Shown: one piece after another, positions 28 through 50,090 of the stretch | Layout: every line of letters begins with the position of its first letter | Position numbering within the stretch: position 1 is the stretch's first letter | Source: Tribonema minus | Taxonomy: Eukaryota > Sar > Xanthophyceae > Tribonematales > Tribonemataceae | Length of the DNA stretch: 64,000 bases | Direction of reading: 5' to 3' | Assembly (NCBI GenBank): GCA_017506865.1 | Contig: JAFCMP010000334.1 | Span: forward strand, 434,001 to 498,000 | Position numbers and translations under genes: made by a program | Notes under the pieces: model-generated | The model's database searches: none | Seen by the model: the letters and a program-made list of their open reading frames with translations, nothing else | Told to the model about the DNA's origin: nothing

Positions 28-3000
28 CTCTATGTGAGAAGCCACAAAAAGTACAAGCATCGAATACTTTGAAAGTACACTGTATCCACCAGGTAGCAAC
101 CAATTCAATCAGTCCAAATGGAGGACAGCGTACTCTTCCCCACACCGCAGCAATTACCTGGACTTCCCGCACCTCCAGGTGCGCAAGCAGTTCCAGGGCG
201 TTCTCTCGCAGCTTCCCGCGCGGCTCCACCTGGTGCCCGTTGGTGACCTCGTGTGTGAACAGGATGCGGCGCGCGGCGATGATGCCTGTGCGCGCATGTG
301 CAGGTTGAGCGGCTGACGCGTCAGTGATACATGTCACTGATTCAACGCACTCAGCAACGGAATGTAAGTTGAGCAGCTGACGCGTGAGTGATACATGTCA
401 GTGATTCAAAGCAGCGTTCAGCAATGGAGCGCAGTGTATTGTTTTTTTTACTTGACAGTACAGTACAGCGGGCGGCAGTAGGACTTATCAAGAGGAGGAT
501 GCGGCGTGCGGCGATGACGCCTGCGCGTGCACGCACAGGTTGAGAGCAGCTGACGCGTCAGTGACACTCGTCAGTGATGAAACGCGGCGCTCGGCAACGG
601 AGCGCAGCGTTATTTTGTTTGTTGTATTTTTTTTCCCCTGGGCAGTACGGTAGGCGGCAGTAGGACTCCTCAGGAGGAGGTGAAGCTCTCTGCCGCACTC
701 GGCGGTCGTGGATGAGGCATCCTTTTTGATAGGACAGGAGCAGCGCGGGCGTGATGAGAGAGTTTGGGAAAGGGTTAGGGTCAGGGTTAGGCCAGGAGTT
801 GCTGTGCACTATTCATTTGCAGTATGCTGCACATGAAGCATAGTGCGCTGTAACTGCAAGAGGCGCACCGCTGGCTGTCGGTCGTGTCCTGCACGTCAAA
901 TCCTCGCATCGGCGTGCTGCTTGTGGCGGCACATGCAGTGTACCCCAAGTGTACTTTTGGTGTACCCTGCAGTTTGCCAGTGTCGGCACATCAAGAACTC
1001 TGCGCTCTCTGCTGCTTCCACCGCATCTTGTATCAGCTGCTAACCGACCTAGGAACCACACGGGAAGGGTTAGGGTTAGGGTTAGCGTTAGGGTTTGGTA
1101 CCTTCCAACAGAGTAACCCCCCTGAACAGTACATGGTCAAGTATTTGAAGCTTATCTATACTGCGTGCATGACTGCGCACAGCGTACTGTAACCACAACC
1201 CAACCCCTAACCCTGAGCGAGCGGCCACTCAGCGCTATCCGACGCTAACATTAGACACTTTTTGCGGGGAGGCACAGCGGTGCCGCCCCCACAGACCTGC
1301 GACAAATCTTGCAAAATGATGCCGCAACTGCTTTGGAGGACATCACAGCACTTGTAGTGGACTACTTGAAGTACCTCGCATAGACGTGCTCCGCATGGTG
1401 GTGCGCAGCGTGCCGCGCGGGTAGTGCCGCCGCTCCAGCGCGTGGCTCCACAGCTGCGCGCCGAGGCACCAGTGCAGGTGCCTCAGCGCTGAGCACGCCT
1501 GCGGGGGGTTGAAAACCTCCACCAGATCCTGCGTCGGTGGTGGGGGAGGGGGGGGGTCACGTGAGTTGAAGCCAGCGTATTGGAGGGCAGGGCTCAGCAC
1601 GCTGCTCCAACTGCACCGTGTTCCATGTGAGTGGCTGTGCTACTTGAAGTATTTGCAGCTCCGTACCAGTTCAAGTGCCTGAGCGCTGAGCAAGCCTGCG
1701 GGGGTTGGACACCTCCACCAGGTCCTGTGTTGAGGGGTGGGGGAGGGTGGGGGGGTAGGGGCGGGAGGGTGGTCATGGAAACGCTTAGAAAGGTCGTAGA
1801 GCTCTAGGTGACAAGGTGCGGTCAGCCGTCAGTGACTTCCACCGGTAACCGCGGTCGCCGCTGCTGCTGCAATTGGCCATGGGTCGTGTTAGTTGAGCCA
1901 GCTCATTGTAGGGCAGAGTGAGCACGCTGCTCAAGTGCACCATTCGAGTGGCTGTAGTACTTGAATTACTTTGTCTCTCTGAAGTGAATGCTTGTCGACG
2001 TACACTCCTCTGCATGGCTGGCCCTGCCCCACACGCGACGTTCATGCGTTATACTCAATCCCTCATTGACTCAGTGACTGACAGTGTTGTCCATGACGAA
2101 GACGTCCGCGGCTTCACCAGCGCAATGACTCACTCAATGACTCATTTACTCAGGGACTCACAGTGTTGTCCATGACGAAGACATCAGCGGGCTTGACCAG
2201 CGCAAAGTCGCCCACCCTGTACAGGAATGGCAGCCTCTTGAGCTCCGCAATGAGGTCCTCATCCACGCTGCCTATGACGCTCTGCGACGGCAACACGCCA
2301 CGGCCGACAAAAGCATAATGCACATTTCAATACAAAAACCAACAGAACCCTTGCAAGCAAGTATTTCATATTGTGCTTTCAATGCTTCACAGCATCACCG
2401 GTTTGACCGGCGCCTGCATCAACAGGTACTGAGGTCATCATACAGTTATATACTACCGGACCAACAGAGTCTTCAGCTCTGCGATAAGGTCGTCGTCCAC
2501 GCTGCCTATGACACTCTGCGAGAGCGTCGCGTCGCCACCGACAAGAGCTGACTTTAAGATGAGGGTTAGGATCTAGGCTTAACGCTGAAACATACTTTTG
2601 GTTCCCAGGAAGACTGATGTTGAGAGCAATGTGTGAGACAATGCCGTGATCAATACCGTGATCAACGGCAAAGTGGACACCTTGATGAGTAGTGATCTCC
2701 TCGACAAGCATCGAGTGAATCTGTCGCGCACACAAGCAGTCGAGTCGCCTTTCGCGGGTAATGTAGTCGGGAGTGATCTGAGCAATGACAAAGTAAGGTC
2801 ATCGGCCATGCCTAAAGCGCCATGAGCTTGACGCGTGGCGGCATGTGAGAGTAAGAGGTGGCGGGTTACAAAAATCTACACGAAGTGAGGCCGCGCGCTC
2901 ATGCAAATGCCTCACACTCAGACCACCTGTCCAAATTTGTGCCAGCAGAACCCGCTAGTTTCACCGTATTTGCCTAATCGAAATTGCCGAGTGTACAAGT

Positions 3001-6000
3001 CGTTTGCTCTGAGCGGACATGTACCAGTACATACATACCCACTGTACCCACCTGTAGCTGCTCCAGAAGCCCCATGTACTCGCGTCGGTTGGCGGGCAGC
3101 TCTGGCCTGCAGCGCTTGAAGTTGGCGAGGAAAGCCTGCGCAGGCCCAAGGGACAACAAGCCTACAGTTTCAGTGTGCCCACAAAGCATGACGTTACGCG
3201 CTGTGGTGGGGGCACGATACACCTGCGGAACGTCACCGCAACAGCGCAGGTACTTCATACTTGAAGTAGCACCGACCACTGCAAAGTTGTACAACTGCAA
3301 AGCACCTCACAAAGTAACGCACACGCTGCTGCGGCGCTCTTAGCATGGCACACAGGCGCAGCACTGCATCACCCGGTGGCACAGGCAGCAGGGTTGAAGA
3401 GCAGTATGCCTGGTGCTGAAGGTCGGTGCGCCTAAAAGAGTAGGGTTACGATTAGGGTTAGGGTCAGGGTCTGACGCAGGCCACAAGACATCCCAAGAGC
3501 AGCGTGCAACCAGGCGCTTGCTGCGGCCCGCACTGCAGCAGACATGATGCATACCCCCGCTGCACCCCTTCACTATGCGAACCCCCCCCCCCCCTCCCCC
3601 CTTCGCTCGCACCAACGGGCCCGATGTACATGCGTCACAACACCACTCCCGGGGGACCTTCAGTCGTCAACTGCCACGCCATGATATAGCTCCTGGGCAC
3701 GTTGAATCGATAACCGCCACACCCTATTTTGCTATGTAACCATCCTTAGGTACGGGGGGAGGGCTGTACTCGCAGCAGATAACATGATGATTGTTGACGG
3801 AGCGCGCACCTGAGCCAGGTCGTTGGGTTTAAGTTCATCGCGCACGCCGGCCACGCACAGGAAGTTGTACCCGCTCCGTGTGAACTCCTGGGGGAGGAAA
3901 CAATGGGCGAGGGGGTGGGGGTCAGTGGGCCTGTACATGCTAGGAGGTGTGAGCGGTACTGCCTCAAGGTGGCATACATAGCAAAGGCGCCAATGGCTTT
4001 TGCTGGTGCCGTGGACGATGCCTTTAGACAGGAAACGTCACATGTAAGCAGGCTTGTCTCTTGCCATAGCCCATAGTCAAGAACTGAGGACAGGAACTGA
4101 GAACTTGCGAATGCGCAGCACATTCAAGGTGAGGGAGGGAGGGGTCAGACGGTCTGTACATAATAGGGGGCGTGAGCTTTGCGGATGAAGACGACATGGT
4201 GGTTCGGCCACCAAAACATGGACGCAACCTCTCCCATATGCAGCAATAGCCAATCGACAACAGAAGGTACCGAACGAAAGTGCTGCATGCATGTCGGCAC
4301 ATTACTAGATTTCAACGCTGCACATGTGTGGCGCCCCGCTTGCGAGTCGACAGAGCCGCAACGAACATGGCAGCCATGTTCAATGCGGCAGCACAGAAAG
4401 GGACGAGGCCATATGCTACACAGACACTCACTGTCCACTCTTCGACAACTTCACATAAATTCAATGCTAGTCTTCTTGACTGTGCAACCGTCAAGTCTGC
4501 ACAATAAAAGCATGAGAGCGTCCAAGAAGGTTATATCATTGAGTGAGGTCCATGCAACTTTGCACATGGTCCCTACCAGGCTCTCTACTGTGCTACAAGC
4601 AATCTTCAAAGGCAATTGTCACAGTCAAGGCAACTTACGTTACTCTCTATGTAGTCCAGCAGGGCACGATACCGCGCAACTGTACAAATGTCTAGTAGAC
4701 TCTAGTAGACTCTCTACCGTGCTGAAAGGATTATGTCATGGCAGTCGTCACAGCCAAGGCAAGGCGACTTGCGTTGCTCTCTGTGAAGTCCAGCAGAGCG
4801 CGGCACCGCGGAAGTCTCTAAACAGAAAGGTGTGAAATTGACGGAGGATCACCACACAATTTTACACAGGTTTCTGGTAGACTCTCTACTGCATCAAGTC
4901 CTGCATGTTAATAGTCACAGTCATGCTATCTCCCCGACGTCACAAGGCCAGGCGACTTACGCTGCTCTCTATGTAGTCCAGCAGAGCGCGGTACCGCGCC
5001 TTCTCATGTAATCAACGCCAGTCCACATGACTGCGCAACCGTCAAGTCTCCACAAGAAAAGTACGAAAACGCTCAACTAGAAAAGTGATGGCACACGTCA
5101 CAGCCAAGGCCAGGCGACTTACGCTGCTCTCTATGTAGTCCAGCAGAGCGCGGTAGCGCGCCTTCATGGCGCCCCAAAAGACGGCGGTGGGCCGCAGCAT
5201 CTGACCGCCCCTCACGGGGATCATGGGAATCTGCGTCAGCAGGACGGCAGCGGGATTTGTTAGTAGATAGCGCTTGTCAGTACATGGCATCGCGCTGTTA
5301 AGTGAGTGAATGCTGCACGCTGTAACGGCAGCTGACCGCCCCTCACGGGAATCATGGGGATCTGCGCCAGCAGGACAGGCAGCAACGCTCATCAGAGTAG
5401 AGCGTGGGGATCTGTATCAGCACGACGGGCAGCAACGCTCATCAGAAGAGAGCATCTGACCCTGCCTCACGGGGACCATGGGAGTCTGCGTCGAGGGTTA
5501 GGGTTAGGGTGAGGGTTAGGGTCGAAGGGCAGCGCCATTCGTCAGTAGACGGCATTCGTCAGTAGAAAGCATCGCGCTTCTTGGCAGATATCATCATCGG
5601 CACTGTCAAAGAATCTGCCCACCCTGCACCATGGAATTGTTCGGGTGCTTCAGCGGGACAGCAGCGCATTTCAGAAGAGGAGAGCGGCGCACTGGAAGGC
5701 TGAGCGCTGCTGTCAATTGTGGATCGGAATGCTGAGCAAGCATGGGCACACGAAAAAGGCGCCAGACGCATCAGCAAGACCACAGTGTACCAGAAAAGAA
5801 GCAATGCGTGCTCGGTGACTACAACCGCGAGCGCTGTGAATGACTCGTGGTGGCTCTGGTGCATGCCACCAGGTGCCGTTACAACAGGCCCTTTATGGGC
5901 GCTGCGCGAGCCTGCAGACGCATCAGCCGGGCAGCAGCGCACATCTGAATTGCAAGGATTCCAAAGAAGGCTCGGCTCTGAAGCGTGCATGTGCCGTGAG

Positions 6001-30000: not shown

Positions 30001-33000
30001 GGCTTGAACGACGCCATTGGAGACCAGGGATCATAGAGAAACGATGGTGCTGCCAAGAGGTTCACCTAAAAACCGCCGTGGTAGGGTAACACTGTTTGCG
30101 CTCGCAGTCTGTCCTCATTACGCGTTGCAAGCATGACTTCTGCAATCTCTCTAATAAACAAGACAAGAAAAAATCATGTCAGCAAACTCTCTGGTGCGCA
30201 AGACAGGAAAAAATTACGCACCGCATGGGCCAGCAGGGGTCATCTGCCCACCGCTGACGCCATCGAAACGGCTCCGGCGGGACTGCACTTCGCTTCAGGG
30301 CAGTTGCGAGTGATTTTGGCACACACTGACACTTTCGCTCTCAACTCACCAAGTAAGTCCGACATGTCAGCTCAAGCGTTATATCAAACGTCAAGGTCAA
30401 ATGAGAACCCTGTTCACACACACGAGGACTCCCCCTGAAGTATGGCGGCGGTGCTTCATGCAGGAGACTCGAGAAAATTTTGCCGGATACTCCCCAAAAC
30501 CTATGGCGACTCACTCCACACCTTGCCCTGCCCGCAGCGCAGCTACCCTCAGCTCACCAGGCAAGAATAGCTTCGTCGGGACTCGTTGAAGTATTTGGCG
30601 GCGTTTGTATTTACTATGTACTCCATACACTCCCCTCCCCCCGGCAAGAGCGACCTGAGCTCACTAGCGAGAAGCATTTCACGAATACTCCTTTAAAAAG
30701 AGGCCAGCGGTGACCCATTCTAGACCCTGACCCCAGCCAATGCGACCTGGGCTCAACTGGCGAAAACAGCTTCGTCGGTGACTCCTTGGGCAGGCCGGTG
30801 GCGATCGGCACGGCGTACGCCTGGCCGCACTCGCGGCAAAAGCGACCGTTGAGGTCACCGATTTCTACTCCACGCCCCACCCTATACCCTGGGCAAATGG
30901 CAGAAGCAACCTGGGGCTCACCTAGCAAAACAGCTTCGTCAGATCCTCCTTTAGAGGCCGACGGTGACTCATTCCACACCTTGCCCCCTGGGCGATGGCA
31001 GAAGCGACCTGAGCTCACCTGGCGCAAACAGCTTCGTCAGGGACTCCTTGGGCAGGCCAGCCGCAGAGTTTTTTTGCTGGCAATGTACTCCATGCGTTAC
31101 CCTGTGCCCGGCAAAAGCGACCTGAGCTCACCGACTTCAGGCAACGGCAAAAGCGGCCTGGGGCTCACCTAGCGAGAAGAGCTTCGTCGGAGACTCCTTA
31201 GACAGGCCGGCGGCGATCGGCACGGCGTACGCCTGGCCGCACTCGCGGCAAAAGCGACCTGAGCTCAGCAATTTCTACTCTACACCTTACCCTACCCCCA
31301 GACAACGCAACCCTGAGCTCACCTAGCGAGAACAGCTTCGTCGGCGACTCCTTGGACAGACCAGCAGCGATCGGCACGGCGTACGCCTGGCCGCACTCGC
31401 GGCGTATCGCCAGCGCTGTCGCACCGTCCACCAGCACCTCTATCAGCGCCAGGCGCTTGGGGAACAGCAGCGCCTTGAGCAGGAACACTTGAAGTTCGTC
31501 GAGGTCCCACGTGCACGCCTGCGCGCGCCGGGAGGGGGGGGGGGGGGGGCGGGATGTATGAAAGAGGGACTTGAGCAGGAAGAACACATGAAGTTTGTCG
31601 AGGTCCCACGTGCACGCCTGGGGGGGGGGGGGGTGGTATGTATGAAAGAGGGACTTGAGCAGGAACACTTGAAGTTGGTCAAGGTCCCATGTGTACGCCT
31701 GCGCGGGGGGATGTACTTCTGTGACGCAAGGAGTGGCAGCGGCGGCGTGAGATGGCGTTGTTTCAGCGGCTTGCGCTGGCGGTCAAGCGCAATTCTTGCC
31801 GCGTGCTTTGGCGCGGCGATACGCTGACGCCTCGAGACGGCGGCATTTCGGCTTGCAGTCAGAGTGCAGCAGTGGCGGGGCGTGCTTGCACCGGTCGCAC
31901 GATGGCGCTTGCGGTACTTACGGGCACACAGAGTGTTCAAAGAGCACACGTCTGCAGGTTAGTGTCAAAAACAGAGCGTGGGCACTCGAAGCTGATGCAG
32001 GTCCCGTGTGCACATGCCTGGCTGCATAATGCAGCGCAAGAAACAGGATGAGCAGGGTGTGCACCAGGGGGCAGCGATGCCCGGCTTGCGCTCTAAGTAT
32101 GGTTACAGCAAGCGTTCTAGGAAATAAAATAAAAGTTTTGCTGTGGCGCAAACCGAGTGCACACCATCGTGCGCCTCAGCACACAAAGCTTCTGTTGAAG
32201 TTGCCCGAAGTGCGCATACGAGCAAGAAGTGCGCAGCGTGCGCAACTTCATTGGGCCTTACACTGACGTGGTCATCACCCGACACGGCCTTGATCTGCGC
32301 CCACTTACATGGTCTCATGCAACTTCAACAGAATGGCAGAACGACTGCAGATGGTGACGTGCCCAAGAGTCAATGACACCCACTGACTGGTGAACGAAAC
32401 CGGTTCTGAATGTTGAAGGTTCGAGTCCTTAAATTTCCGTTCTATTTAATTCATTAATGAACTCTTTAAGCTAAGCTTGGTTCAATTTTGTTCCTTATCG
32501 AGAAGTTTGTGGCTGAAGTAAGAAAAATTAAAATTGGCGATAAAATTGCTGGTCGAGCGTCGCAAAAAAATATTAAAATTAGCTAAAGGTTTTCGAGGAA
32601 CTCATTCGAGACTGGTTTCCAAGGAAACACTGGGGTAATTGTTATTGCGGCAACAAACCGTGTCCTTAAAAAGGTACCCCTTCTCCCGAAGTTACGGGGA
32701 GGACAGAATTTTTTTAATTCTAGACGGTTCGGATTATTTCTACCCCTAAGAAAAAAATGCTTTAGCTTACACAATTATTGTAGCAGCAAACGCCCAGCGG
32801 TGTGTCCTTCCCGGTCCTCTCGTACCATTTTTTAAATGCCCTTAAACGAAAATCTAACATAAAGGGTGGTTCTAGCTGGTTCAGGTTACGCAAGAAATTT
32901 TTTAATACCTCAACAAAAAAGGTAAAACAAAGAATAATTTGTGGACCGTGAAATTACGCGGTCTTCGTGCGCCTTTCAGCGCCCGGTCCGACTCATGTAC

Positions 33001-36000
33001 GCTTGTGGCGTTGAGCACGCGTCGCGCAGCGCAGCTGGCTGGCGAGGCCACGGCACCGCACTTCAACCCCGCAAAAGACCTCAAAAAGATTGAAGTATGT
33101 ATTATGACCTGCGGCTGCATAACGCGGGCACACGCACCTCCTCTGCATGGGCCTTCGGATTAGATTCGACGGACGTCCGGTCGCCGGTTGATCACACAGG
33201 CACTGCAAAAACGCCCTGAGAGGACAATAAACTATAGTAAAGACACTGTGAAATCAATAGGCGGCGGACAAAAAATTGAGCCACCCACGCACCTCCGCGT
33301 CGGCCTTCAGGTCGAACTCGAAGATGTCAGGTCAGCTGCTGCTGGATCACAGATCAATTTGCGCGCCCTCAGGCATTTATTCCAAGTTTACGTTTTTTCT
33401 ACGGCCTTGTATTATGAATTCATTTATAGAAAGTACATGTTGCCAATCAAGATATCCCAACAGGCACACGGCGAACGACGCGTTCTGCCATCAAAGACGA
33501 AGGCGGTCCTCAGGCTGATCACACTTTTGGAGTCCAATCCATACGGTTCGTCAGACCGCCCAGTCCATACGGTCGGTCAGACCGAGGAAGTCAACAATAT
33601 AAATACACAGCAGACCAGGCGATCTGCCACCATGCACCTCCGCATTGGCCTTGAGGTCGAACCCGAATGCCGTCCAGCCGCTGCCGTCGTCCGGAGCGTC
33701 CTCGCTGTGCGTGAAGAGCTTCTCGCCGTCGGCGCCGCCAAAGCCAAAGCTCTTGCAGCATTTTGATACTCTTCAAGTTTTCAACGCCCCTGTTGAGGTT
33801 TTGGTTATAAATGTGAAAACCAATACATCAAACCAAACACACGCGTTCAGCCACCACGCACCTCCGCGTTGGCCTTGAGGTCGAAGTGGAGAAGTCAGTC
33901 CAGCTGCTGCTCGATCACAGAGGCCTTATTGCGCCCTCAAGCGTTTTCACACCTGGTTAATTAAATGTGTATACACATAGTGAGAAAAATTCTCTCAACA
34001 ACGACAGCACAAGAAAACACGGCGAAGCACACTGCAGGTTCAGCCGCCACGCACCTCCGCGTTGGCCTTGAGGTCGAAGTCGAAGGCGGTCCAGCCGCTG
34101 CCGTCATCCGGCACGTCTTCGCTGTGCGTAAAGAGCTTATCGCCGTCGGCGCCGCCGAAGCCAAAGCTCTTTGCAGCATTTTTACACTCTTCAACTTGAA
34201 GTTGTCAATGCCCCAGTTGATTATTTGGTCGTGAATGTGATGATACCATGAAGTCATCAAACCAAACATACGCGTTCAGCCACCACGCACCTCCGTGTTG
34301 GCCTTGAGGTCGAACCCAAATGCCGTCCAGCCGCTGCCGTCGTCCGGCACGTCCTCGCTGTGCGTGAAGAGCTTCTCGCCGTCGGCGCCGCCAAAGCCAA
34401 AGCGCATGCGCTGGCCGCTGGAGGTGATGGTGGGGCCGTCCGACAGGGCGAAGACGGAGAAGAAGCCCACGCCAAAGTAGCCGACCTGTTTGGCGCGCAC
34501 AAGATGGCGAGTAGGTGTGGGTGGTGAGTAGGTGTGGGTGGTGTAATACTGGCTTGTCATAGGGAGGGGGGCGCCAGTCATTTCGCAGGTATACTTCGAA
34601 GCATAATCATTGAGCAGCAACCAGCAAAGCAAAGTCAGAGACGAAGTCCACGCCAAAGAGGCCAACCTGCTGTCACGTGCGTCATGCGCCATTATGCTGG
34701 CGCCTGCAACTGAGACAAGAAAAGGGGGGGGTGACACGTTGTAGAACCACCGCCTCAACAGTGGTGTGTGATAGAGCGAAGCCTGACCAGAAAGGCATGA
34801 CGAAGCAGCCAATCCGCATGCGCGCGTCGCGCACGCGCAATCGCCGACAGACCGGGGCGGCACTCTCTGACAGCTCGTTTTTAAAAAACCGAATTGCACT
34901 CGTTGCTTCACATGGATGATGAGGTTGAAATCACTGGCAGACGTTTTGATCATGTGAGCGGGGGCCGCAGTGCTCAGCACCGCTGAGTGCCGATGGCGGC
35001 GCGCACCAAGAAACACACACAGACCGAGAAGCGGCCCGCATGTAACCCTAACCCGTACCCTAACCCTCACCCTATGTTGGTCATCCGGTGCAATTGCAAT
35101 CGGCGCGGCTCAGCGGCGCCGCGGACAGAGCTTCAGCGCATTGCGACGGTGGCACGCTGGGAAGCTGCCTGTGAACATCGAGACGGCATATCGCGCGCGA
35201 CATGGGCGCTGCAAGAGATGGCGCGCAAACATGCCCGCGTGAAAAGGAAGCTGACAGCGCACAGCTTACTTCATGTTGAGGTTGCGTCCTGTTGGGCAGT
35301 GACGTGGGTGTTCAAGGTTTTGCCTCCTGGCTCTCAATGATCACTTCTAGCAGCACATGCCCTACTAGTCTTGTGTCTGATCGGGACCCCCTTCGTTATC
35401 CATCTCTGGCACGGTGGTGAGCTATGCGCTATCAAAAGCCATGCCGTGGCTGATGCGCACCACTTCAGTGCTCATTTGATGTGCAACACTGTGGGTGTTG
35501 CAGCGCTCACCGAAGCGGAGTCCGGGTTGCCGCCGGCGATGGTGGTGATCCTCTCCCAGTCGCTGCTCTGGAACGGGCGCCCGTTGTTGCGCACGACGAG
35601 CCGCGAGAACGTGCCCGTACCTGCACGTGCAGCACCAGTGTCTGCAAACTTGAATGATACTTCGAAATATGAAAACAGACCTCATGCACAGAATGCGCAA
35701 GGGAGGCAGTTGTAGGCGCGCTTCTGACCATCCTCCGCAGTGCTTCTTAGGGTTAGGGTTAGGGTTGGAATTAGGGTTAGGGTGTGCTTCTGGGGCATGC
35801 CGCCAGACGTAAAAGGTGTCAATGCTTGCGAGGCACTTCGGGGCGCGCACAACCCAACACCAGTGTGAATCAATGATGTATCTATCACTTCAAGTGCAAG
35901 TGGGGCCTCAGAAGGCCGCCGCTGCCGATTACAGCATGCAAGCTGTGATTGTATGCAGGCACGAGCCCTGCGCCTGACACCAGCTCTACCATATGCATGG

Positions 36001-36871
36001 CACGCATGCATGATCGGCTGCTGTATAGAAGTATGTGAGACGTGCCCTTGACATACTGGGGTCCGTCAGTTACAGCGTCAGTTACAGGTAACGCACACAG
36101 GGGGAGCGTCAGCATCGCGCGCAGCCACCTCCGCCTGCGCGTGCCGCCGCCGCCAAACACTGGCTGCACGCTGAGCAGCACTGGCTGCAGTTGCCGTGCC
36201 TAAAGACTGCTGCATACAGTCGCGGACGCAAGCTTCACAAGGTTTACCCGCCTTTTTTCAATATATTGTTTCAGTTTTTTCGGGGATTTTCTTCCTAATT
36301 TTAATCACGACAAACATAAGCATATGTTCTTAAATTGAAACATCGCCGCATCTGTCTGTTCCGCTGACAAGACTCTCGCGCGATCATGGCCACGCTTCAG
36401 TTGTGGCTGTTGTCAACTGGAACCGAATTCTCGCGCCGCAGAAGTGGTAGCTGGTCGACAGCACGGCAAGATGCTGCGCACACTGTGCCTGAATGGGTGC
36501 TGCTGCACTGCGGCGTCTGCATGGAATCCTTGCGCGTTTGCCGCTGGTGGCCCTTGGAAATCGTTCCAGGCACGCGGCGATTGCAGTCTCTGCTTCTTGA
36601 ACACACAGTCGCCTGCAGTGCCAGTACTGTTGTGAACATACTCTCATACTCACATGGAGCTTGTTGAAGCATGGGGTATCGACACACATATCACCAACAC
36701 AATAGAATCTCCAATTGCACGCGCACCTGGTGTGGCACTGCGCGTCAGGCGTATCTGCACGTGCGTTGCGCCCGCATCGTCGGCGTTCTGCACCAGCTCC
36801 TTCAGGCTGAAGAAGTCTGTGGCATAGCGCGCCAGCACCTTGACGATCAGGCTCCGCTGATTGGTCTTCAC
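1..36871 (-). CDS. Sacsin-like HATPase protein of DUF3684 type, 30+ exons, 3' end beyond the window
   Basis: One spliced gene, about 1370 codons recovered. The N-terminal 150 residues form a GHKL-type ATP-binding fold as in sacsin/Hsp90-like proteins: ELVQNADDA (Bergerat N-box, exon 1), VRNNGRPF and IAGGNPD (exon 2), GYFGVGFFSVF (exon 3). Downstream exons follow, in order, landmarks I know from fungal DUF3684 proteins: GMDTHQTTG (exon 7), LPLPPHTLPIALSQF (exon 14), VVLRKPSEVYM (exon 18), FLLHIGVREVP (exon 19), LPTVPWSGDL (exon 20) and RILFTHEVTNGH (exon 30). Exon ends carry GT (once GC) donors and AG acceptors. Phase agrees at every junction except exon 14/15. The initiator exon was not found; exon 1 opens directly after an acceptor. 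The biochemical role of the family is unknown to me; ATP binding is inferred from the motifs. Introns average about 1.1 kb and are full of copies of exon edges. The family match is confident; individual exon borders are predictions from sequence only. Confidence 0.88.
158..285 (-). CDS. DUF3684 gene exon 30
   Basis: Encodes GIIAARRILFTHEVTNGHQV then EPRGKLRENALELLAHLEVR. The 'R.LF.HE.T...' stretch is near the C-terminus of the family. Phase 1 in, 0 out, donor gtaatt. Confidence 0.82.
310..620. repeat. Tandem repeat and exon-30 acceptor echo
   Basis: Three copies of a unit containing agctgacgcgtcagtgat and a following cagcaa(c/t)ggagcgcag segment. At 478-545 there is a degenerate copy of the 5' part of exon 30 with its acceptor (gatgcggcgtgcggcgatga). 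Confidence 0.75.
770..1097. repeat. Interstitial TTAGGG tracts
   Basis: gggttagggtcagggttagg near 772-790 and a longer tract with four units at 1067-1097, both inside the exon 29/30 intron. This is not a chromosome end, because coding exons lie on both sides. Confidence 0.8.
1375..1528 (-). CDS. DUF3684 gene exon 29
   Basis: Encodes DLVEVFNPPQACSALRHLHW then CLGAQLWSHALERRHYPRGT and ends after SMR-like residues at donor gtactt. I chose the upstream acceptor because a C-rich tract precedes it and the same segment is present in the echo at 1.63-1.74 kb; an acceptor at 1499 also keeps frame. 'LGAQLW..AL....Y' matches the family 'LG...LSSLV...Y'. Confidence 0.78.
1625..1745. repeat. Echo of exon 29 acceptor edge
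   Basis: A degenerate copy of the exon 29 start and its preceding intron tract: cctgagcgctgagcaagcct, then the copy of the acceptor region and a G-rich stretch matching that upstream of exon 29. Confidence 0.7.
2068..2548. repeat. Echoes of both edges of exon 28
   Basis: The donor edge is repeated at about 2083-2120 (gttgtccatgacgaagacgt). The acceptor edge is repeated at about 2468-2547 (gtcgtccacgctgcctatga and the adjoining intron). The real exon lies between. Confidence 0.75.
2162..2281 (-). CDS. DUF3684 gene exon 28
   Basis: Encodes SVIGSVDEDLIAELKRLPFL then GDFALVKPADVFVMDNT, 40 codons, phase 0/0, donor gtgagt. It matches 'L.....P.L.......L..P.DI.I.D..' of the family. Both edges have echoes. 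Confidence 0.84.
3052..3135 (-). CDS. DUF3684 gene exon 27
   Basis: Encodes AFLANFKRCRPELPANRREY and MGLLEQLQ, phase 0/0, donor gtgggt. An alternative acceptor 26 bases upstream would add a short out-of-frame extension and is not preferred. Confidence 0.78.
3810..3887 (-). CDS. DUF3684 gene exon 26
   Basis: Encodes EFTRSGYNFLCVAGVRDELK and PNDLAQ, phase 0/0, donor gtgcgc. It is a second occurrence of the 'FL...GV..E..P.D(I/L)A' block seen in exon 23. Confidence 0.83.
4620..5010. repeat. Echo array of exon 25 donor edge
   Basis: Three degenerate copies of the last ~45 bases of exon 25 plus donor (gctctctatgtagtccagca) at about 4.63, 4.77 and 4.96 kb, downstream of the true exon. Similarity to the exon is highest in the nearest copy. 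Confidence 0.78.
5123..5230 (-). CDS. DUF3684 gene exon 25
   Basis: Encodes IPMIPVRGGQMLRPTAVFWG then MKARYRALLDYIESS, donor gtaagt, phase 0/0. Echoes of the donor edge lie at about 4.63, 4.77 and 4.97 kb, and acceptor-edge echoes at about 5.34 and 5.46 kb. Confidence 0.84.
5325..5495. repeat. Echoes of exon 25 acceptor edge
   Basis: Two copies of the exon start and acceptor (ctgaccgcccctcacgggaa; catctgaccctgcctcacgg) upstream of exon 25. A TTAGGG tract follows at about 5497-5525. Confidence 0.7.
6253..6372 (-). CDS. DUF3684 gene exon 24, followed by a GC-AG intron
   Basis: Encodes GMSDGEPIPGGGTWTPRDAF then DYLGRRSRELGPDQITAIKQ, exactly 40 codons, phase 0/0 between exons 23 and 25. The donor is CAG|gcaagc, the classic GC-donor context. 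The helix 'YLGRRSRELGPDQ' followed by exon 25 'IPMIPV' matches the family's 'L..R..EL...DI..L....FIPV' order. Confidence 0.78.
6295..6500. repeat. Duplicated acceptor edge of exon 24
   Basis: About 75-80 bases including the exon 24 start (cgtcgctcatgccctgaggg) are repeated upstream near 6437-6500 (cgtcgctcacgccctgcggt), together with the following gagcatc(g/a)(t/c)cagctt stretch. Confidence 0.75.
7010..7095. repeat. Echo of exon 23
   Basis: A degenerate copy of most of exon 23 and its donor (acgccagcagttcgtgcatc ... ccggctccctgcgcact), about 235 bases downstream of the real exon; the frame is broken. Confidence 0.7.
7245..7320 (-). CDS. DUF3684 gene exon 23
   Basis: Encodes TYAEQLLSLGVRREPEMHEL and LALLK, donor gtgacg. 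It matches the repeated family block 'FL..CGVK.EP...E(I/L)A..L'. One echo lies near 7.0-7.1 kb. Confidence 0.87.
7845..8140. repeat. Echo array of exon 22 donor edge
   Basis: The exon 22 end with donor (cgcacgcca, then ..cttgc at the donor) recurs at 7849, 7961 and 8079, ahead of the true 8189: spacing 112, 118 and 110 bases. Each copy keeps a caag|gt-like donor. Confidence 0.8.
8165..8319 (-). CDS. DUF3684 gene exon 22
   Basis: Encodes TYLRTCGAAFVPTAQRSVLP, then KASELYLEPELDAGRKDHPF and GVRVVWRPFA plus two bases at donor gtcagt. The 'A.FVP' and 'P...LYL' motifs fit the family. The exit phase 2 is exactly that needed by exon 23, which fixes this unusual donor. Confidence 0.82.
8430..8700. 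repeat. Echoes of exon 22 acceptor edge
   Basis: ggtacgtccgcggccagtgg near 8455 and ggtacgtctgcggccagtgg near 8660 copy the start of exon 22 plus adjoining intron. The repeated catgtacacagttga(a)(a/g)tacaggc segment (8353, 8580) belongs to the same unit. Confidence 0.72.
9390..10008. mobile_element. MITE-like palindromic element 1
   Basis: About 42-base terminal inverted repeats: accgtcttgtctataatcaa... from 9391, and its reverse complement ending at about 10007. No transposase ORF in the ~0.6 kb interior, which holds several ggggtggac-type subrepeats. It lies in the exon 21/22 intron. A non-autonomous DNA transposon is the natural reading; the superfamily is not determined. Confidence 0.75.
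10086..10170 (-). CDS. DUF3684 gene exon 21
   Basis: Encodes LPEWEHAMSAFEYLLAHLGT and FYKSADAQ, phase 2 in and 0 out, donor gtacgc. It matches the family segment ending in 'YF...Y..FY'. Confidence 0.83.
10318..10500. repeat. Dispersed repeat, copy 1
   Basis: Shares a diverged ~180-base stretch with 35270-35450 (catgttgaggtt at the start; ccacctctggcacggtggtg versus ccatctctggcacggtggtg near the end). Both copies lie in introns of the same gene, in the same orientation. Confidence 0.6.
11000..11475. repeat. Echo array of exon 20 donor edge
   Basis: Three degenerate copies of the exon end (accagctcctgcacg, accagctcttgcacgg, accagctcttgcaagg) with the adjoining intron 'ctcacagcggcgtcatt' segment, downstream of exon 20. 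Confidence 0.8.
11605..11820 (-). CDS. DUF3684 gene exon 20
   Basis: Encodes YLAPQQSALTDADWSELKRS, then LYIPTRDMQNMGLPTVPWSG, then SDFLIMCGVRGHPTVQELVR, donor gtgcgt. This order (helix, 'LP...W.G', 'FL...G.R..P...EL') is exactly that of DUF3684. It has the largest echo arrays of the window on both sides. Confidence 0.9.
11880..12700. repeat. Echo array of exon 20 acceptor edge, six copies
   Basis: The segment gtgagcgcggactgctgcgg and the acceptor next to it recur at about 11926, 12073, 12235, 12379, 12538 and 12661, after the true copy at 11791. Spacings are 135, 147, 162, 144, 159 and 123 bases. Copies retain a recognisable acceptor; several carry in-frame stops (for example gac-tag), so they are not exons. 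Confidence 0.88.
12887..12999 (-). CDS. DUF3684 gene exon 19
   Basis: Encodes VGRQFLLHIGVREVPQVSVV then LKHFLGRLTTSTWEGAV plus two bases, donor gtatga. It matches the family block 'FLLALGVRK..'. Two echoes of its acceptor edge lie upstream. Confidence 0.88.
13085..13345. repeat. Echoes of exon 19 acceptor edge
   Basis: Two copies of the exon 19 start (cttcgcgcacgccaatgggc; cttcgcggacgccgatgtgc) with the acceptor side, about 135 and 315 bases upstream of the true exon end. Confidence 0.78.
13953..14063 (-). CDS. DUF3684 gene exon 18: KPSE block
   Basis: Encodes ASGPVVLRKPSEVYMLDASA and KHFGNLPRPIKIPG, phase 0/0, donor gtgagc. 'KPSE.Y' followed by '.LP.' is a recurrent DUF3684 signature. Confidence 0.88.
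14295..14325. repeat. Interstitial CCCTAA tract
   Basis: ccccaaccctaatcctaacc and flanks, a short degenerate telomere-type tract in an intron. Confidence 0.7.
14740..15060. repeat. Echoes of exon 17 donor edge
   Basis: Two copies of the exon 17 end (gccggtgcgttcgcgcttac near 14783; gccggtgcgttggcgctcac near 15016) with donor and adjacent intron, including the 'catgtgtcact(a/t)gtgaagtg' segment found next to the true donor. Confidence 0.8.
15169..15307 (-). CDS. DUF3684 gene exon 17
   Basis: Encodes LDELHEVEIVSALAAMNCVP then SETPRLLDSRAAAAALVVSA and NAPARK, donor gtacgc. The 'L....CVP' stretch just before the KPSE exon matches the family order. Confidence 0.83.
15355..15425. repeat. Echo of exon 17 acceptor edge
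   Basis: cagcgccgacactatctccg and following ttcgtcgagcctt copy the first part of exon 17 with its acceptor. Confidence 0.72.
15530..15960. repeat. Short direct repeat 'gatataagagcgg'
   Basis: The motif (g/c)atataagagcgg(t/c) recurs about seven times at 15531-15660 and 15903-15935, some in inverted form (ccgctctta). Further copies of a longer unit (agtcgcattgt..tgcacaataatgcagtcac) follow to about 16.27 kb. Function unknown. Confidence 0.65.
16385..16885. repeat. Echoes flanking exon 16
   Basis: The donor edge is copied near 16390-16460 (agttacctgtcgcgctgcat). The acceptor edge is copied near 16848-16880 (catcctgcatggcgcaggca). The true exon lies between, so both edges are duplicated outward. 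Confidence 0.75.
16596..16654 (-). CDS. DUF3684 gene exon 16 (short)
   Basis: Encodes DVELATGMLGLVASKVQRD plus two bases, donor gtaact. Phase agrees with exons 15 and 17. Echoes of both edges lie in the flanking introns. Confidence 0.72.
17425..17520 (-). CDS. DUF3684 gene exon 15
   Basis: Encodes ESRAVKLGEGPVAPPCSWWE and YVTQQRASLWQ, donor gtgtgc, phase 0 at the 3' end. The protein sequence continues the family from exon 14, but no acceptor here gives the phase that exon 14 needs. Confidence 0.72.
18355..18560. repeat. Echoes of exon 14 donor edge
   Basis: Two copies of the exon 14 end with donor: actcactgaggtcagccgcg near 18480 and actcactgaggtccgcagca near 18360. A minus-strand reading stays open across all copies. 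Confidence 0.8.
18637..18806 (-). CDS. DUF3684 gene exon 14: PPHTLP block
   Basis: Encodes FHNSLRFDIQDLRQTTTTLA, then YVGLPLPPHTLPIALSQFFS and AADL plus one base at donor gtgagt. PPHTLP is a conserved family landmark. The exit phase (1) does not fit the next recognised exon (see findings). Confidence 0.82.
19465..19562 (-). CDS. DUF3684 gene exon 13
   Basis: Encodes VLPRRVLSLAEVVDVLRWYL then AWIKKSQHRTVY plus two bases, donor gtacgt. The 'L...F/LRW' helix matches the family. Confidence 0.82.
20190..20410. repeat. Echoes of exon 12 donor edge
   Basis: Two copies of the exon 12 end plus donor (cttacctctacttggtgaag near 20210; cttacctctactatgtcaaa near 20356) downstream of the real exon. Confidence 0.72.
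20529..20632 (-). CDS. DUF3684 gene exon 12
   Basis: Encodes RGSDYGKKKAGAKDAVKAAG and PVPDLTMDDIVE, donor gtaagt. The PDLTMDDIVE segment leads into exon 13 as 'ITVADI..' does in the fungal family. Phase 1 in, phase 0 out. Confidence 0.78.
20641..20862. repeat. Tandem repeat of about 115-120 bases
   Basis: Two near-identical units beginning tagaaacgagaaaa(a)tcgcct and containing gcatgctccatagtacat and cgtagtgaagttcatt(g/a)aa, plus a partial third. Directly upstream of exon 12. Confidence 0.8.
20990..21430. repeat. Echo array of exon 11 donor edge, outer part
   Basis: About three units of ~115 bases sharing ctcacaccacaacttgcccc and tgcgtacctg-type donor copies. The same unit resumes at 22.08-22.22 kb next to the exon; MITE-like element 2 separates the two blocks. 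Confidence 0.78.
21450..21957. mobile_element. MITE-like palindromic element 2
   Basis: Terminal inverted repeats of ~36 bases: taccgcattatctataatta... at 21450 and its reverse complement ending ..cacggta at 21957, sharing aagcccatggggcgagtt. Flanked by AGT on both sides if the ends are read as ACCG/CGGT. No transposase ORF. It interrupts the exon 11 echo array. Confidence 0.75.
22230..22334 (-). CDS. DUF3684 gene exon 11
   Basis: Encodes PAALMGIDRYLGLPLVPAAI and RCAHFFAAALPA, phase 1 at both ends, donor gtacgc. Its donor edge is repeated several times in the downstream intron. Confidence 0.8.
22765..22805. repeat. Echo of exon 10 donor edge
   Basis: gcatcgcgcgcctagccgcg copies the exon 10 end and donor (gcatcgcgcaccttgccgcg). 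Confidence 0.65.
23265..23424 (-). CDS. DUF3684 gene exon 10
   Basis: Encodes VVILSAHASVPARPLDAIGA then RDAFWQRGNARAPPLRLLTS and LGVRPMTEARQ plus one base. It resembles the DUF3684 segment around 'EEAFW...ILSS.G'. Phase 0 entry, donor gtgcgc. Confidence 0.83.
23555..24065. repeat. Echoes of exon 10 acceptor edge
   Basis: Degenerate copies of the exon start and acceptor at about 23.56, 23.69 (cgcctgcagacgcgtgcaga), 23.83 and 24.02 kb (gcgcgccggcatggacgtgt). Confidence 0.7.
24360..24500. repeat. Echoes of exon 9 donor edge
   Basis: ccctcaccatgacagcttca occurs near 24376 and 24467 ahead of the true 24531. The first copy also repeats gctcagcggcgcgtcctcgc from the exon. Confidence 0.8.
24538..24779 (-). 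CDS. DUF3684 gene exon 9, low-complexity linker
   Basis: Encodes SSIAAVRTQVAALDSTAAGT, a Ser/Lys/Ala-rich linker, and QGEDAPLSDAEAVM at donor gtgagg. Phase 1 in, phase 0 out agrees with both neighbours. Similarity to the family is weak here, as expected for a linker. Confidence 0.75.
25460..26085. repeat. Echo array of exon 8 donor edge, five copies
   Basis: Copies of the exon 8 end plus donor (cctgggctgcccgtcaccgc and variants) at about 26053, 25894, 25738, 25564 and 25467, after the true 26212. Spacings 159, 159, 156, 174 and 97 bases. The units between copies also align (aagtactgcgaagcgg..-type segments). Confidence 0.85.
26213..26342 (-). CDS. DUF3684 gene exon 8
   Basis: Encodes FERVTRAYDAAPAALPGSGY and PQLDGPRRASLAAPATGSP plus one base, donor gtacgc. 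Its 3' edge and donor are repeated five more times downstream at about 159-bp spacing. Confidence 0.8.
26480..26745. repeat. Echoes of exon 7 donor-side half
   Basis: Two copies of the 3' half of exon 7 (cagccgccgatgaacttatc at about 26519 and 26690), each with an adjoining CCCTAA-type intron segment. Confidence 0.8.
26872..27048 (-). CDS. DUF3684 gene exon 7: THQTTG signature
   Basis: Encodes VFVGMDTHQTTGTGYHLNGP, then PTMERTSLDVQDKFI and WNRDLLHCGGLVARAFYDYQ. This is among the best conserved stretches of DUF3684 proteins and is the firmest family evidence. It is 59 codons, phase 0/0, donor gtgaca. Confidence 0.92.
27150..27505. repeat. Echo array of exon 7 acceptor edge, three copies
   Basis: ggtgccggtggtctggtgcg or variants followed by acaaacacctgg(t/a)ggcaggg at about 27160, 27325 and 27455. 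The first copy is nearly identical to the true exon edge at 27.0 kb, acceptor included. Confidence 0.88.
27600..27660. repeat. Echo of exon 6 interior
   Basis: cacgagtgacagcggccaat and the following gccgcc stretch match the segment of exon 6 encoding the linker after the glycine tract; not in frame. Confidence 0.6.
27975..28303 (-). CDS. DUF3684 gene exon 6, with poly-glycine tract
   Basis: Encodes HGALSVETKQCKPFIAGL, then APIVSLTFDYSGG followed by about ten Gly and four Ala from a CCG/GCC repeat, then DDWLLSLVSPTRCGAEPCGK at donor gtatgt. The alignment with DUF3684 around this segment is good, but the glycine tract is an insertion typical of unstable GC-rich triplets. Phase 1 in, phase 0 out. 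Confidence 0.85.
28785..28832. repeat. Interstitial CCCTAA tract
   Basis: Six to seven units (ctaaccctaaccctaaccct, ataa, then three more units); the longest telomere-type run of the window, inside an intron. Confidence 0.85.
28960..29280. repeat. Tandem 133-base repeat, echoes of exon 5 donor edge
   Basis: Two nearly identical ~133-base units (starting tcaccttcaatagcaaactg at about 28977 and 29110). Each holds cgcctcaccttca, the exon 5 donor edge, more than once. This makes an artificial plus-strand ORF of 301 codons. Confidence 0.85.
29363..29482 (-). CDS. DUF3684 gene exon 5
   Basis: Encodes NITVQDLRLTLTRHATA followed by an Ala/Ser/Glu-rich linker. Phase 1 at both ends closes the frame between exons 4 and 6. 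Donor gtgagg; the donor edge is repeated downstream. Confidence 0.8.
30515..31225. repeat. Echo array of exon 4 donor edge, six copies
   Basis: agcttcgtc and neighbours recur at about 31180, 31030, 30932, 30768, 30673 (degenerate) and 30569, after the true 31334: spacings 154, 150, 98, 164, 95 and 104. The copies at 30.78 and 31.2 kb extend further and are almost identical to the exon (gcgatcggcacggcgtacgc). Confidence 0.87.
31323..31518 (-). CDS. DUF3684 gene exon 4
   Basis: Encodes TWDLDELQVFLLKALLFPKR then AIRRECGQAYAVPIAAGLSK and ends KLFSL plus one base at donor gtgagc. It corresponds to the segment after the ATPase lobe in DUF3684 proteins. Both edges are echoed many times in the flanking introns. 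Confidence 0.82.
31525..31720. repeat. Echoes of exon 4 acceptor edge with poly-G tracts
   Basis: Two copies of the exon 4 start (aggtcccacgtgcacgcctg) separated by long G runs (the C-rich acceptor tract on the minus strand), plus a third variant near 31.68 kb. Confidence 0.85.
32400..32940. other. Mosaic of plastid DNA fragments (NUPT) in intron 3
   Basis: Abruptly AT-rich DNA built of short plastid pieces. Plus strand, in order: rpoB (EVRKIKIGDKIAGR, about 32494-32556), rpl20 (RRKKILKLAKGFRGTHSRL, 32558-32614), ftsH (NTGVIVIAATNRV, 32626-32664), atpA (AYTIIVAANA, 32765-32794). Minus strand: two 23S rRNA pieces, ccgtaacttcgggagaagg (32669-32699) and the sarcin-ricin region ggtacgagaggaccgggaag (32795-32826). 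A T-arm-like ggttcgagtcc lies near 32425. None is a working gene. ftsH together with rpl20 and rpoB favours a red-lineage plastid. Confidence 0.85.
33638..33751 (-). CDS. Duplicated exon copy of exon 3 (candidate alternative or extra exon)
   Basis: This is a 114-base copy of the 3' part of exon 3, preceded by an AG and followed by gtgcat. It stays open and phase 0/0, encoding SFGFGGADGEKLFTHSED and GSGWTAFGFDLKANAE. It differs from exon 3 by only a few residues. If used, it would repeat 38 residues of the ATPase lobe; it may equally be a non-functional echo. Confidence 0.4.
34055..34168 (-). CDS. Second duplicated copy of exon 3 (candidate extra exon)
   Basis: Same length (114 bases), same phase and same relation to an AG acceptor and gtgcgt donor as the copy at 33.64 kb. 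It is open, with D/K substitutions (GGADGDKLFTHSED). The intervening sequence is also partly duplicated. Use as an exon is unproven. Confidence 0.4.
34291..34485 (-). CDS. DUF3684 gene exon 3: HATPase GxxGxG block
   Basis: Starts VGYFGVGFFSVFALSDGPTI, the glycine-rich ATP-lid block, and ends GWTAFGFDLKANTE at donor gtgcgt. It is 65 codons, phase 0 on both sides. The 3' two-thirds is copied several times downstream (33.1-34.2 kb), and the acceptor side once upstream near 34.6 kb. Confidence 0.88.
34575..34675. repeat. Echo of exon 3 acceptor edge
   Basis: gtccacgccaaagaggccaa with flanks copies the exon 3 start (cccacgccaaagtagccgac) and its acceptor. Confidence 0.72.
35040..35075. repeat. 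Interstitial CCCTAA tract
   Basis: taaccctaacccgtacccta and two more units; another TTAGGG tract lies at about 35749-35783 in the same gene. Confidence 0.75.
35270..35450. repeat. Dispersed repeat, copy 2
   Basis: Partner of the 10318-10500 repeat (catgttgaggttgcg ... ctctggcacggtggtgagct). Confidence 0.6.
35511..35620 (-). CDS. DUF3684 gene exon 2: HATPase NG motif
   Basis: Encodes FSRLVVRNNGRPFQSSDWER and ITTIAGGNPDSAS. The NNGRPF and GNPD segments match the second ATP-site block of sacsin/DUF3684 proteins. Phase 1 entry and phase 0 exit join exactly to exons 1 and 3; donor gtgagc. Confidence 0.87.
36727..36871 (-). CDS. DUF3684 gene exon 1 (first recognised): HATPase N-box
   Basis: Encodes VKTNQRSLIVKVLARY then FFSLKELVQNADDAGATH, the Bergerat N-box helix that binds Mg-ATP in GHKL proteins. 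It opens after an acceptor (..caacag) with GTG, so an upstream exon must supply the start codon. It ends phase 1 at donor gtgcgc. A short ATG-led reading at 37755-37793 was considered as the initiator but has a poor donor. Confidence 0.85.
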
Positions 36872-38010
36872 CTGTTGCGTGCATCAGCAGGGATTATTGC
36901 CAAACGGATGAGAATGTAGGCCGCAAGCGGTGGCGCTAGTGTAAACACCGTGCAGAGGACATGCGCATGAAGGAGTGCTTCTGCTGACGAAGGCGCGCTT
37001 GATGAGGCTTTGCTAGTTGGTCTTCGCCTATCCCATGTACATATTAGCAGGGGTGATCATAGAGCAGCTGAGGAAGTCGGCAGTGTCAGTGGGCCAAGTG
37101 TGGCAGGTGATCTGCGTCTTGCCTACAATTGCGTCAGCAAGTGTGTCAGTGCTAAAGAGCATGTGAAGCAGCGGATGCAGTGGCACTGGCGACGGTGTAG
37201 CCACACCAAGGCCTGCCCCATACCCACTATATTCTGTTACGATGACTGATCAGGCAGGTGAAAACCCGTTTTCAAGAGATTCTGCCGAGCCACCGCAACG
37301 CACACGTACACCTCGTCACTGGCTCAACGGCTTTGCATCAGCTAGATCTGCCGGCAAAGTGAGCGGGCAATGGTCACTGCTACTTCATATTCTTGACTGA
37401 GGATGCAGGATGCTAGGCTTCTAGAGCATGCTTGGTTGATTGCCAGCAAGTCATGTGCATGCAGGCGACATTGCAGCTCTGTGCTCATGGCAGTAAGCCA
37501 CGCATGTCAAAACAGCGACATGCACACAGATCACGCATTGGAGCTCTCAAGCCCACGCAATGAGGCATGCTGCCCCTTCAGCAAAGGTACCAATGATTTG
37601 CGAGTTCTTTCCGAGAAGCTTGTATGACCACCACCACAACCAGATCAGGGCATGCAAGATCGTATCATCACCTCTTCGGTGCGGACATTGCCCTTGGCCC
37701 CCTCCATGACGCCCTGCTGTGGGCTTCCTCAGGACGTGGTCAATCACTCGCCACTGAATCTCCAGCAGCTCTCATCGTGCCATCTGTCTCCATGGCTCCA
37801 CTGCGTGCGCTGACAGATTTGGATCGCAACTTCAACTTCCAGTTTACCGTTGAGAAAAAACAACAAAAAACGTAGAGATTGACCACGGGAGATGGGAAGG
37901 CTGCACAGCTTACGCTCTAAAACTGCAGCATCAGTTGTGAGTTTACCCTACAGCAAGTACATTCAGGGGCGTTGCCCTGGACTGTGCATCCCAAATCTCT
38001 CACATACACA
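36872..38010. promoter_or_regulatory. Interval between divergent genes, probable shared 5' region
   Basis: Lies between the first recognised minus-strand DUF3684 exon and the plus-strand TTL start. It should hold both transcription starts and the missing first exon of the DUF3684 gene. A degenerate copy of the exon 1 acceptor edge (gatgaggctttgctagttgg) is at 37000-37030. No recognisable promoter element is visible; plus- and minus-strand ORFs here resemble nothing I know. Confidence 0.4.
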
Positions 38011-49367: not shown

Positions 49368-50090
49368 GTCAGCGACTCATGTCGCATAATATTACGTTTA
49401 CTTGCCCCCCCTTTGCAGTACCCTTTCCAATTTAGGGGGGTTAGCTGACTGTGGTCACAGGATGTTTGAGTCACTGTGGCACCGTGACCTCAGGCTGTGA
49501 CTGTTACACTTGTGGGAGTTGTACGATTGTTTTCGGTGGTTAGCTCAGAAAAGAGCAGCAGCCCCATGATACTACAGTACACATAGCACAGTCCGGCCGG
49601 ATGTGTTGTGTGTGGGTTTCTCGCCTGCATTGTTCCCTGCACTTGTTCAAGTGTAGTACGGAAACCAGCGTTTCAAACGAAGATCCTCAGTAAATCCCCA
49701 CTTGTACTCATACATGCAGCCTACCCGCGTGATGCCGCAGCACCTACTAGTAGTACGCGTGCACCGTTTTTCAAATGCGCCACGCAAGCCTAGGCCAGCA
49801 CCGTGCCTGATGAGAGTGCTGCTTGAGGGCACGTACCAGCAGTAATAATACCTACCAGAGCACCATGACTTATCTACCGTCACTTGCTCGCTGTGGTGAG
49901 AGGACACGTAGTGTTTAATGTGTTCTGACCGCAGGCTGGCACTTCGCTGCACTGAAGCAGGGTGACGGTGTGCCAGCATGCACTGCAGCACCTAGCACTG
50001 CACGCGCAATTGACCACAAAGTAAGCAAAATGCAGATCACATGATAAGTTTAAAAAGCAAGACTCACTCACAACCAAAGTTTGAATCACC
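49368..50090. other. No gene recognised
   Basis: Probably the 5' flank of the retroelement. Short ORFs only. Confidence 0.35.

Follow-up and report, generated by a model that had tools for sequence, protein, structure and literature searches.

Intronic minisatellites and other tandem repeats form arrays within introns and are ordinarily not anchored on exon edges, and to our knowledge the lengthening of introns by routes other than transposons is poorly documented. Brown algae are close relatives of Tribonema. In the brown alga Ectocarpus, the median autosomal intron is 524 bp long (PMC12477816). The accessible parts of the published accounts advance exonic tandem duplication as a real mechanism by which introns are gained (PMC3443670), formulated in the Rogers/Hellsten AGGT model as a tandem duplication inside an exon (PMC3443670, PMC4974935); describe a tandem duplication that crosses a junction for one potato gene, RdRp (Ma et al. 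2016, PMC4974935); and characterize introner elements as dispersed and inserting genome-wide, partly in algae (PMC9860276). Here we analyse a stretch of 64,000 nucleotides (the window; C334:434001-498000) from the 158 Mb, 554-contig assembly of Tribonema minus, in which a gene of the DUF3684 / sacsin-Nov type carries, in its introns, rows of copies of the ends of its own exons, together with their splice sites. We call these copies echoes.

Copies of exon edges in the DUF3684 gene

Five proteins were recovered when the joined exon pieces served as the query of a protein search; the best match was P0001 (JKP88DRAFT_241511, Tribonema minus), whose annotation carries PF12449 (DUF3684) and a sacsin/Nov domain name, in agreement with the identity given in an earlier note on this DNA. 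Mapping P0001 onto the minus strand gives 22 junctions, every one of them with a single GT-AG solution. The exon model used below is a conservative set of 26 exons in which echo copies are skipped and exons 20-26 use hand-chosen splice sites; the gene probably extends left to about position 143 or further.

2162..36871, minus strand: DUF3684 / sacsin-Nov-type gene, modelled portion, 26 exons (mapping of P0001 plus the conservative exon set)
34291..34485, minus strand: exon 3 (VGYFGVGFFSVFALSDG...KANTE; mapped junctions, homolog P0002)
31323..31518, minus strand: exon 4 (ACTWDLDELQVFLLKALL...KLFSL; mapped junctions, homolog P0002)
11605..11820, minus strand: exon 19 (YLAPQQSALTDADWSELKRSLEGLYIP...ELVRVC; conservative exon set)

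Each exon edge, represented by 50 exon and 25 intron bases, was compared with its own adjacent intron, with the dinucleotide-shuffled intron as null. A copy was found at z>6 for 28 of 47 edges, lying outward of the junction; the own intron outscored every one of 23-24 other length-matched introns of the gene at 33 of the 47, and the intron on the opposite side of the exon reached the level of 6 standard deviations for 1/45 edges. Nearly all of the significant matches (26/28) extend at least 3 bases on either side of the junction. The earlier note had claimed that exon ends are repeated outward into the adjacent introns, and had set similarity no higher than in shuffled sequence as the result that would tell against it; the phenomenon stands, and its count of at least 20 of 30 exons becomes 17 of 26 exons when an exon is counted if either of its edges passes z>6 in the edge-test table.

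The copies are direct and local. Repeat pairs at most 1.5 kb apart number 145 direct and 4 inverted in the window together with 10 kb to its left, and 102 of the 109 direct self-matches of the window fall inside the DUF3684 gene, with partners at most 1.6 kb apart. Local repeats cover 34% of the gene, compared with 0.4% of window positions 37030-64000. Within introns, 34% of bases lie in any local repeat, and the figure is 28-35% from 300 bases inward; intron interiors thus also hold tandem duplications, and about two thirds of the intron sequence has no detectable local repeat. The statement that the introns are made of echoes was therefore too strong.

Echoes and echo arrays with their edge scores are as follows.

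33276..34290, minus strand: exon 3 donor echo array, offsets 236/429/653/998, weak fifth at 1153 (z=35.1)
31519..31705, minus strand: exon 4 acceptor echoes (z=27.8)
30513..31322, minus strand: exon 4 donor echo array, offsets 154/304/401/566/765, weak at 191 and 658 (z=23.1)
27049..27500, minus strand: exon 7 acceptor echo array (z=51.4)
26499..26871, minus strand: exon 7 donor echoes (z=25.6)
25468..26212, minus strand: exon 8 donor echo array (edge 26213), spacings 159/159/156/174/97 (z=20.1)
24312..24537, minus strand: exon 9 donor echo (z=36.8)
15308..15427, minus strand: exon 16 acceptor echo (z=26.2)
14661..15168, minus strand: exon 16 donor echoes (z=31.4)
11821..12689, minus strand: exon 19 acceptor echo array (edge 11820), spacings 135/147/162/144/159/122 (z=35.5)
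10942..11604, minus strand: exon 19 donor echoes (z=24.4)
7840..8193, minus strand: exon 20 donor echo array (edge 8194), spacings 110/118/112 (z=11.6)
5231..5492, minus strand: exon 23 acceptor echoes (z=25.3)
4449..5122, minus strand: exon 23 donor echo array, offsets 162/350/484, nearest copy 98% over 61 bases (z=48.9)
2282..2548, minus strand: exon 26 acceptor echo (z=20.4)

The even spacings that had been reported for several arrays were recovered to within about one base, apart from a few weak extra sites (exons 20 and 22 of that account are exons 19 and 20 here). At the exon 4 donor (31323) they are 154/150/97/165 if the weak site at 191 is disregarded, and more sites lie at 658 and 765; at the exon 20 donor they run in the reverse of the order first given; and the sixth, outermost site of the exon 19 acceptor array lacks AG. 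Runs of AGGGTT/TTAGGG-like hexamers, a telomere-like unit, occur on either strand in the gene region at 1066-1095, 5494-5522, 28786-28828 and 35747-35783.

Divergence, splice signals and unit of the copies

Alignment of 55 echoes at 28 edges to their exon edges gives exon-echo mismatches of 77/881, 82/874 and 164/868 at codon positions 1, 2 and 3 (8.7, 9.4 and 18.9%) and of 246/1392 (17.7%) on the intron side, splice dinucleotides apart. This ratio of about 1:1:2, with the intron side at about 2, is the one expected if a neutral echo is being compared with an exon that changes at silent sites alone. Gaps on the exon side break the reading frame, not being multiples of three, in 24 of 25 cases. 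The echoes evolve as non-coding DNA.

Splice signals are largely retained: GT is kept in 25 of 29 donor echoes and AG in 19 of 20 acceptor echoes, six further echoes being unaligned over the dinucleotide. When sites are scored with a position weight matrix built from the gene's other junctions, the median for echo donors is 6.7, against 8.6 for true donors and -2.1 for all GT of the gene, and that for echo acceptors is 7.1, against 7.4 for true acceptors and 0.1 for all AG. Retention at this level is close to the expectation for neutral decay, and accordingly we claim no selection for or against the decoy sites.

The spacers flanking exon and echo were compared at 24 of the 28 edges, with one echo taken per edge; of these, the exon 18 acceptor, which mapped onto itself, was dropped. 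In 17 of the 23 usable cases the spacers are homologous at z>4, indicating that the unit is most often a short tandem duplication that spans the junction. Repeats are mostly 60-200 bp apart, with a median of 134 bp (92 contiguous pairs); the histogram is broad over this range without a clean peak, so that a unit of nucleosome length is not claimed, nor is a lower limit, spacings below 60 bp being absent from the BLAST list and in some cases present in Tandem Repeats Finder. Among nine usable hand-chosen arrays, exon and echo are about as close as two echoes are to each other, a roughly star-like relationship. The decay with distance from the exon that had been described holds as a tendency and not as a rule: the echo closest to the exon is frequently, though not invariably, the one most similar to it.

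Junction coverage and other genes

Local repeats cover a fraction of 0.54-0.58 of the positions at most 20 bases from a junction and 0.28-0.35 of those lying 300 or more bases inside introns; more than 120 bases inside exons, where just 82 positions contribute, the fraction is 0. Covered junctions in the DUF3684 gene number 28 of 50, compared with 16.4 when the junction map is shifted around the gene; both the profile and these counts place the exon 14 donor one base off. A neutral simulation, combining uniform tandem duplication with protected exons, silent-site drift, deletions and indels under hand-set parameters (other settings could shift the numbers), gave a junction coverage of 0.17-0.20 at an intron coverage of 0.29-0.38 (observed, 0.34); its maximum at junctions was 0.26 over 8 runs of the closest setting, and a setting without deletions gave less. 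When 40-70% of duplications were aimed at junctions, exon-side coverage reached 0.43-0.51 and intron-side coverage 0.39-0.47. The gene contains 102 repeat pairs against simulation means of 42-88, obtained with slightly different BLAST settings. Because junction coverage exceeds that of the neutral model, exon edges in the DUF3684 gene are either favoured sites or favoured survivors.

The same predominance of direct repeats extends to other parts of the genome, with 318 direct and 7 inverted pairs in the window and loci L005-L024 taken together. Repeat coverage ranged from 0 to 39% in eleven 10-kb stretches. A tie between repeat richness and intron-rich stretches was considered and is not claimed, the coding scan not being predictive: L016 has 32% coverage with three exon-like segments, and L007 and L009 have many such segments with 0-3%. 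Echoes accompany 3 of 10 edges in an isoaspartyl dipeptidase gene (P0006) and 1 of 8 in an endonuclease gene (P0007). In the former (L008, minus strand, 2283-2498), the donor edge of exon 2 is copied 136 bp downstream with 99% identity over 80 bp, and the intervening DNA has no match, making this a fresh copy of the exon core alone; the public model P0006 omits this strong echo.

Kinesin loci were sampled in two sets. In the first five, three chosen for repeats hinted at in the hit table and two for their many exons, repeats touch exon ends at four loci, including the exons ending in GAGKTHTM (L020) and PADSNM (L021). Five further loci were chosen by consecutive exon matches 300-1500 bases apart, a sixth fitting locus (C479) being left out and a table of overlapping matches that names C545 being known before the choice; in these, 5 of 26 edges passed z>6 and the repeats numbered 13 direct and 0 inverted, the edges here being ends of profile matches rather than mapped splice sites. 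The pattern that the earlier note proposed to look for in other genes is thus present in them, as these 5 of 26 kinesin edges indicate, but it is weaker, with marginal enrichment at junctions. Overlaps of at least 8 positions occur in 11 of 82 adjacent pairs of kinesin profile matches, with clear echoes just at C246 and C511; profile matches alone were rejected as a genome-wide echo survey for being too insensitive.

Other features were noted in passing. The fall in local repeats close to the 5' end of the DUF3684 gene, from 34% to 0.4% in 37030-64000, is abrupt. Elsewhere, a 30-kb stretch (C145:90001-120000; L018, L010 and L017) has 37% local direct-repeat coverage and scattered exon-like segments, some of them ankyrin-like by eye. 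Two open frames of the window were also noted:

37921..39036, plus strand: 372-aa open frame with a tubulin-tyrosine ligase (TTL) match, adjoining the DUF3684 gene
45690..49376, minus strand: 1228-aa open frame, perhaps a retroelement, with a weak RVT_1 (reverse transcriptase) match of 28.7 bits, slightly below the curated cut-off of 29.6

Explanations and described systems

We assign a probability of about 0.72 to the reading that repeated short tandem duplications in introns, most often found or longest-lasting where they straddle a junction in the DUF3684 gene, lengthen introns with decaying exon edges. Short tandem duplications, mostly of 60-200 bp, would arise repeatedly in the introns of Tribonema minus; one that duplicates the exon end, GT and intron start, or the intron end, AG and exon start, would leave the exon body and its junction untouched, and the additional copy would turn into intron along with the piece of exon in it. 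Splicing would stay with the site adjoining the exon body, so that the protein would be unchanged and the duplication tolerated. A duplication within an exon alters the protein, whereas one that is intronic or crosses a single junction need not; therefore junction-crossing duplications can accumulate, turning exon ends into intron. The copies would then mutate freely, the exon, held by selection, would serve as the common reference of the array, and further duplication, perhaps with gene conversion between exon edge and echo, would add or refresh copies. Rows of decaying exon edges, carrying decoy splice sites, would thereby lengthen the introns.

Several observations weigh against this reading. 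The right 27 kb of the window and the kinesin locus L022 are essentially free of local repeats, and significant spacer homology is absent from 6 of the 23 usable cases. A match confined to the exon core is seen for two of the freshest copies, one with 98% identity over 61 bases (offset 162) and the other with 99% over 80 bases (offset 136); plain tandem duplication therefore fails for those two, which point to conversion or some other copying step. No simulation fits the exon side well, the junction-aimed runs remaining flat to 80 bases inside the exon while the data drop faster. Outside the DUF3684 gene, the covered junctions number 15 of 52 where circular shift predicts 10.1 (P=0.04), or 14 of 52 where it predicts 9.4 with a stricter margin (P=0.055); in this count one junction (L021) without a valid coordinate is scored as a miss, one L023 donor lies about 30 bases inside the exon, and the five later kinesin loci are excluded.

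That the arrays are instead tandem or alternative exons included in the mRNA, protein repeats rather than intron debris, appears quite improbable, even though the public gene model treats them so. P0001 takes several echo copies as exons, the echoes in general largely retain their splice signals, and two echoes of exon 3 are open and in frame:

34055..34168, minus strand: exon 3 echo serving as a P0001 exon, 114 nt, in frame, own AG and GT
33638..33751, minus strand: second exon 3 echo serving as a P0001 exon, 114 nt, in frame, own AG and GT

Against it stand the 24 of 25 exon-side gaps that are out of frame and a codon-position pattern, with a third-position excess of only 2-fold, that fits a neutral copy beside a constrained exon; together these lead us to reject coding or alternative exons as the general case. 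The echo-free exon set keeps phase at 13 of 13 consecutive junctions of exons 1-14 and at 4 of 4 of exons 15-19. Phase is broken at junctions 14/15 (the exon 14 donor, at its corrected position, is mismatched to exon 15), 19/20, 20/21 and 22/23, which indicates missing or mis-ended exons there and an incomplete 3' half. In the alignment with the homolog P0002, exons 1-4 are adjacent: residues 195-258 of P0002 match exon 3 and residues 255-326 match exon 4, which leaves no room for echo copies between them, and no internal repeats were detected in P0002-P0005 at E 0.001. The public isoaspartyl dipeptidase model likewise passes over its strong exon 2 echo. P0001 also seems to end early inside an echo of exon 19; together with the included echoes, this suggests that part of the deposited protein is probably erroneous.

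Uniform tandem duplication along the gene, with edges conspicuous because their exon partner evolves slowly and stays recognisable, is an unlikely account. Exon-side codon positions 1 and 2 do diverge half as much as the intron side, intron interiors are likewise 28-35% repeat-covered, and the junction excess outside the DUF3684 gene is marginal; simulated with this slow-exon asymmetry, however, junction coverage (0.17) falls below that of interiors (about 0.32), the opposite of the data in the DUF3684 gene, though the idea could become viable again if the neutral model were given different parameters for deletion or age. A stronger contender, to which we give somewhat less than an even chance, is a variant of our preferred reading in which duplications are seeded anywhere, and those arrays that include an exon edge last because the exon always remains available as a donor for gene conversion and unequal exchange; the bias towards junctions would then reflect survival. 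It would accommodate the two fresh copies identical in the exon core alone, the roughly star-like relationship of exon edge and echoes, and the multi-copy arrays that raise the gene's repeat pairs (102) above the simulation means. This variant predicts the same data here as duplication directed by junctions, and conversion must in addition spare the exon. That direction itself, in which some process coupled to transcription or to splicing, such as repair where nicks or R-loops form at the ends of exons, would copy exon edges outward time after time and make exon ends the growth points of introns, with splicing in this lineage unusually able to ignore rows of good decoys, we regard as doubtful. 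An assembly artefact from collapsed or mis-joined repeats is barely credible, since the copies diverge from one another by about 1-30%, the pattern occurs on many contigs and inverted copies are nearly absent; a dispersed element is disfavoured because the matches are local.

If introns have grown by tandem duplication across junctions, the steps of their growth would be readable and countable, each dated by its divergence and anchored to a conserved exon, and such duplication may be one way in which introns lengthen. The arrays are also a natural test of splice-site choice, presenting several good donors or acceptors in a row from which the cell must pick the one adjoining the exon body, and they raise the question of how it ignores so many decoys. 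They can mislead gene annotation, as P0001 suggests.

Among described systems, the echoes fall with tandem duplication across a splice junction, given the 26 of 28 matches that span the junction, the homologous spacers in 17 of 23 cases and the 145:4 ratio of direct to inverted pairs; local inverted repeats are nearly absent around them. The open frame and coding constraint of tandem alternative exons are lacking overall, the two exon 3 copies being open and in frame. Unlike ordinary intronic minisatellites, the Tribonema unit contains an exon end and its splice site. The earlier note had set the echoes apart from introners, and we concur: among the introns of the DUF3684 gene no single family recurs, and 33 of 47 edges favour their own intron over the gene's other introns. 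As with introners, repeated DNA is a source of intron sequence, but the Tribonema copies are local and direct, each array resembling its own exon; the accessible main text of the introner paper (PMC9860276) does not contain the word 'tandem'. As in the Rogers/Hellsten model, tandemly duplicated exonic sequence provides splice sites; there a new intron forms between copies inside an exon, whereas in Tribonema the copies lie outward of existing junctions. The note's further remark that no class of intron built in this way is known to have been described agrees, for arrays on this scale, with our finding no account of them in the accessible open-licence literature, whereas a single event is known (PMC4974935). 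In the accessible account of potato RdRp, as here, the duplication crosses an intron-exon junction and the copy brings splice signals from the parent junction; there, one duplication produced one new intron and inserted exon sequence (PMC4974935), whereas in Tribonema many duplications per intron, at many junctions and in several genes, appear to have lengthened existing introns while leaving the protein unchanged.

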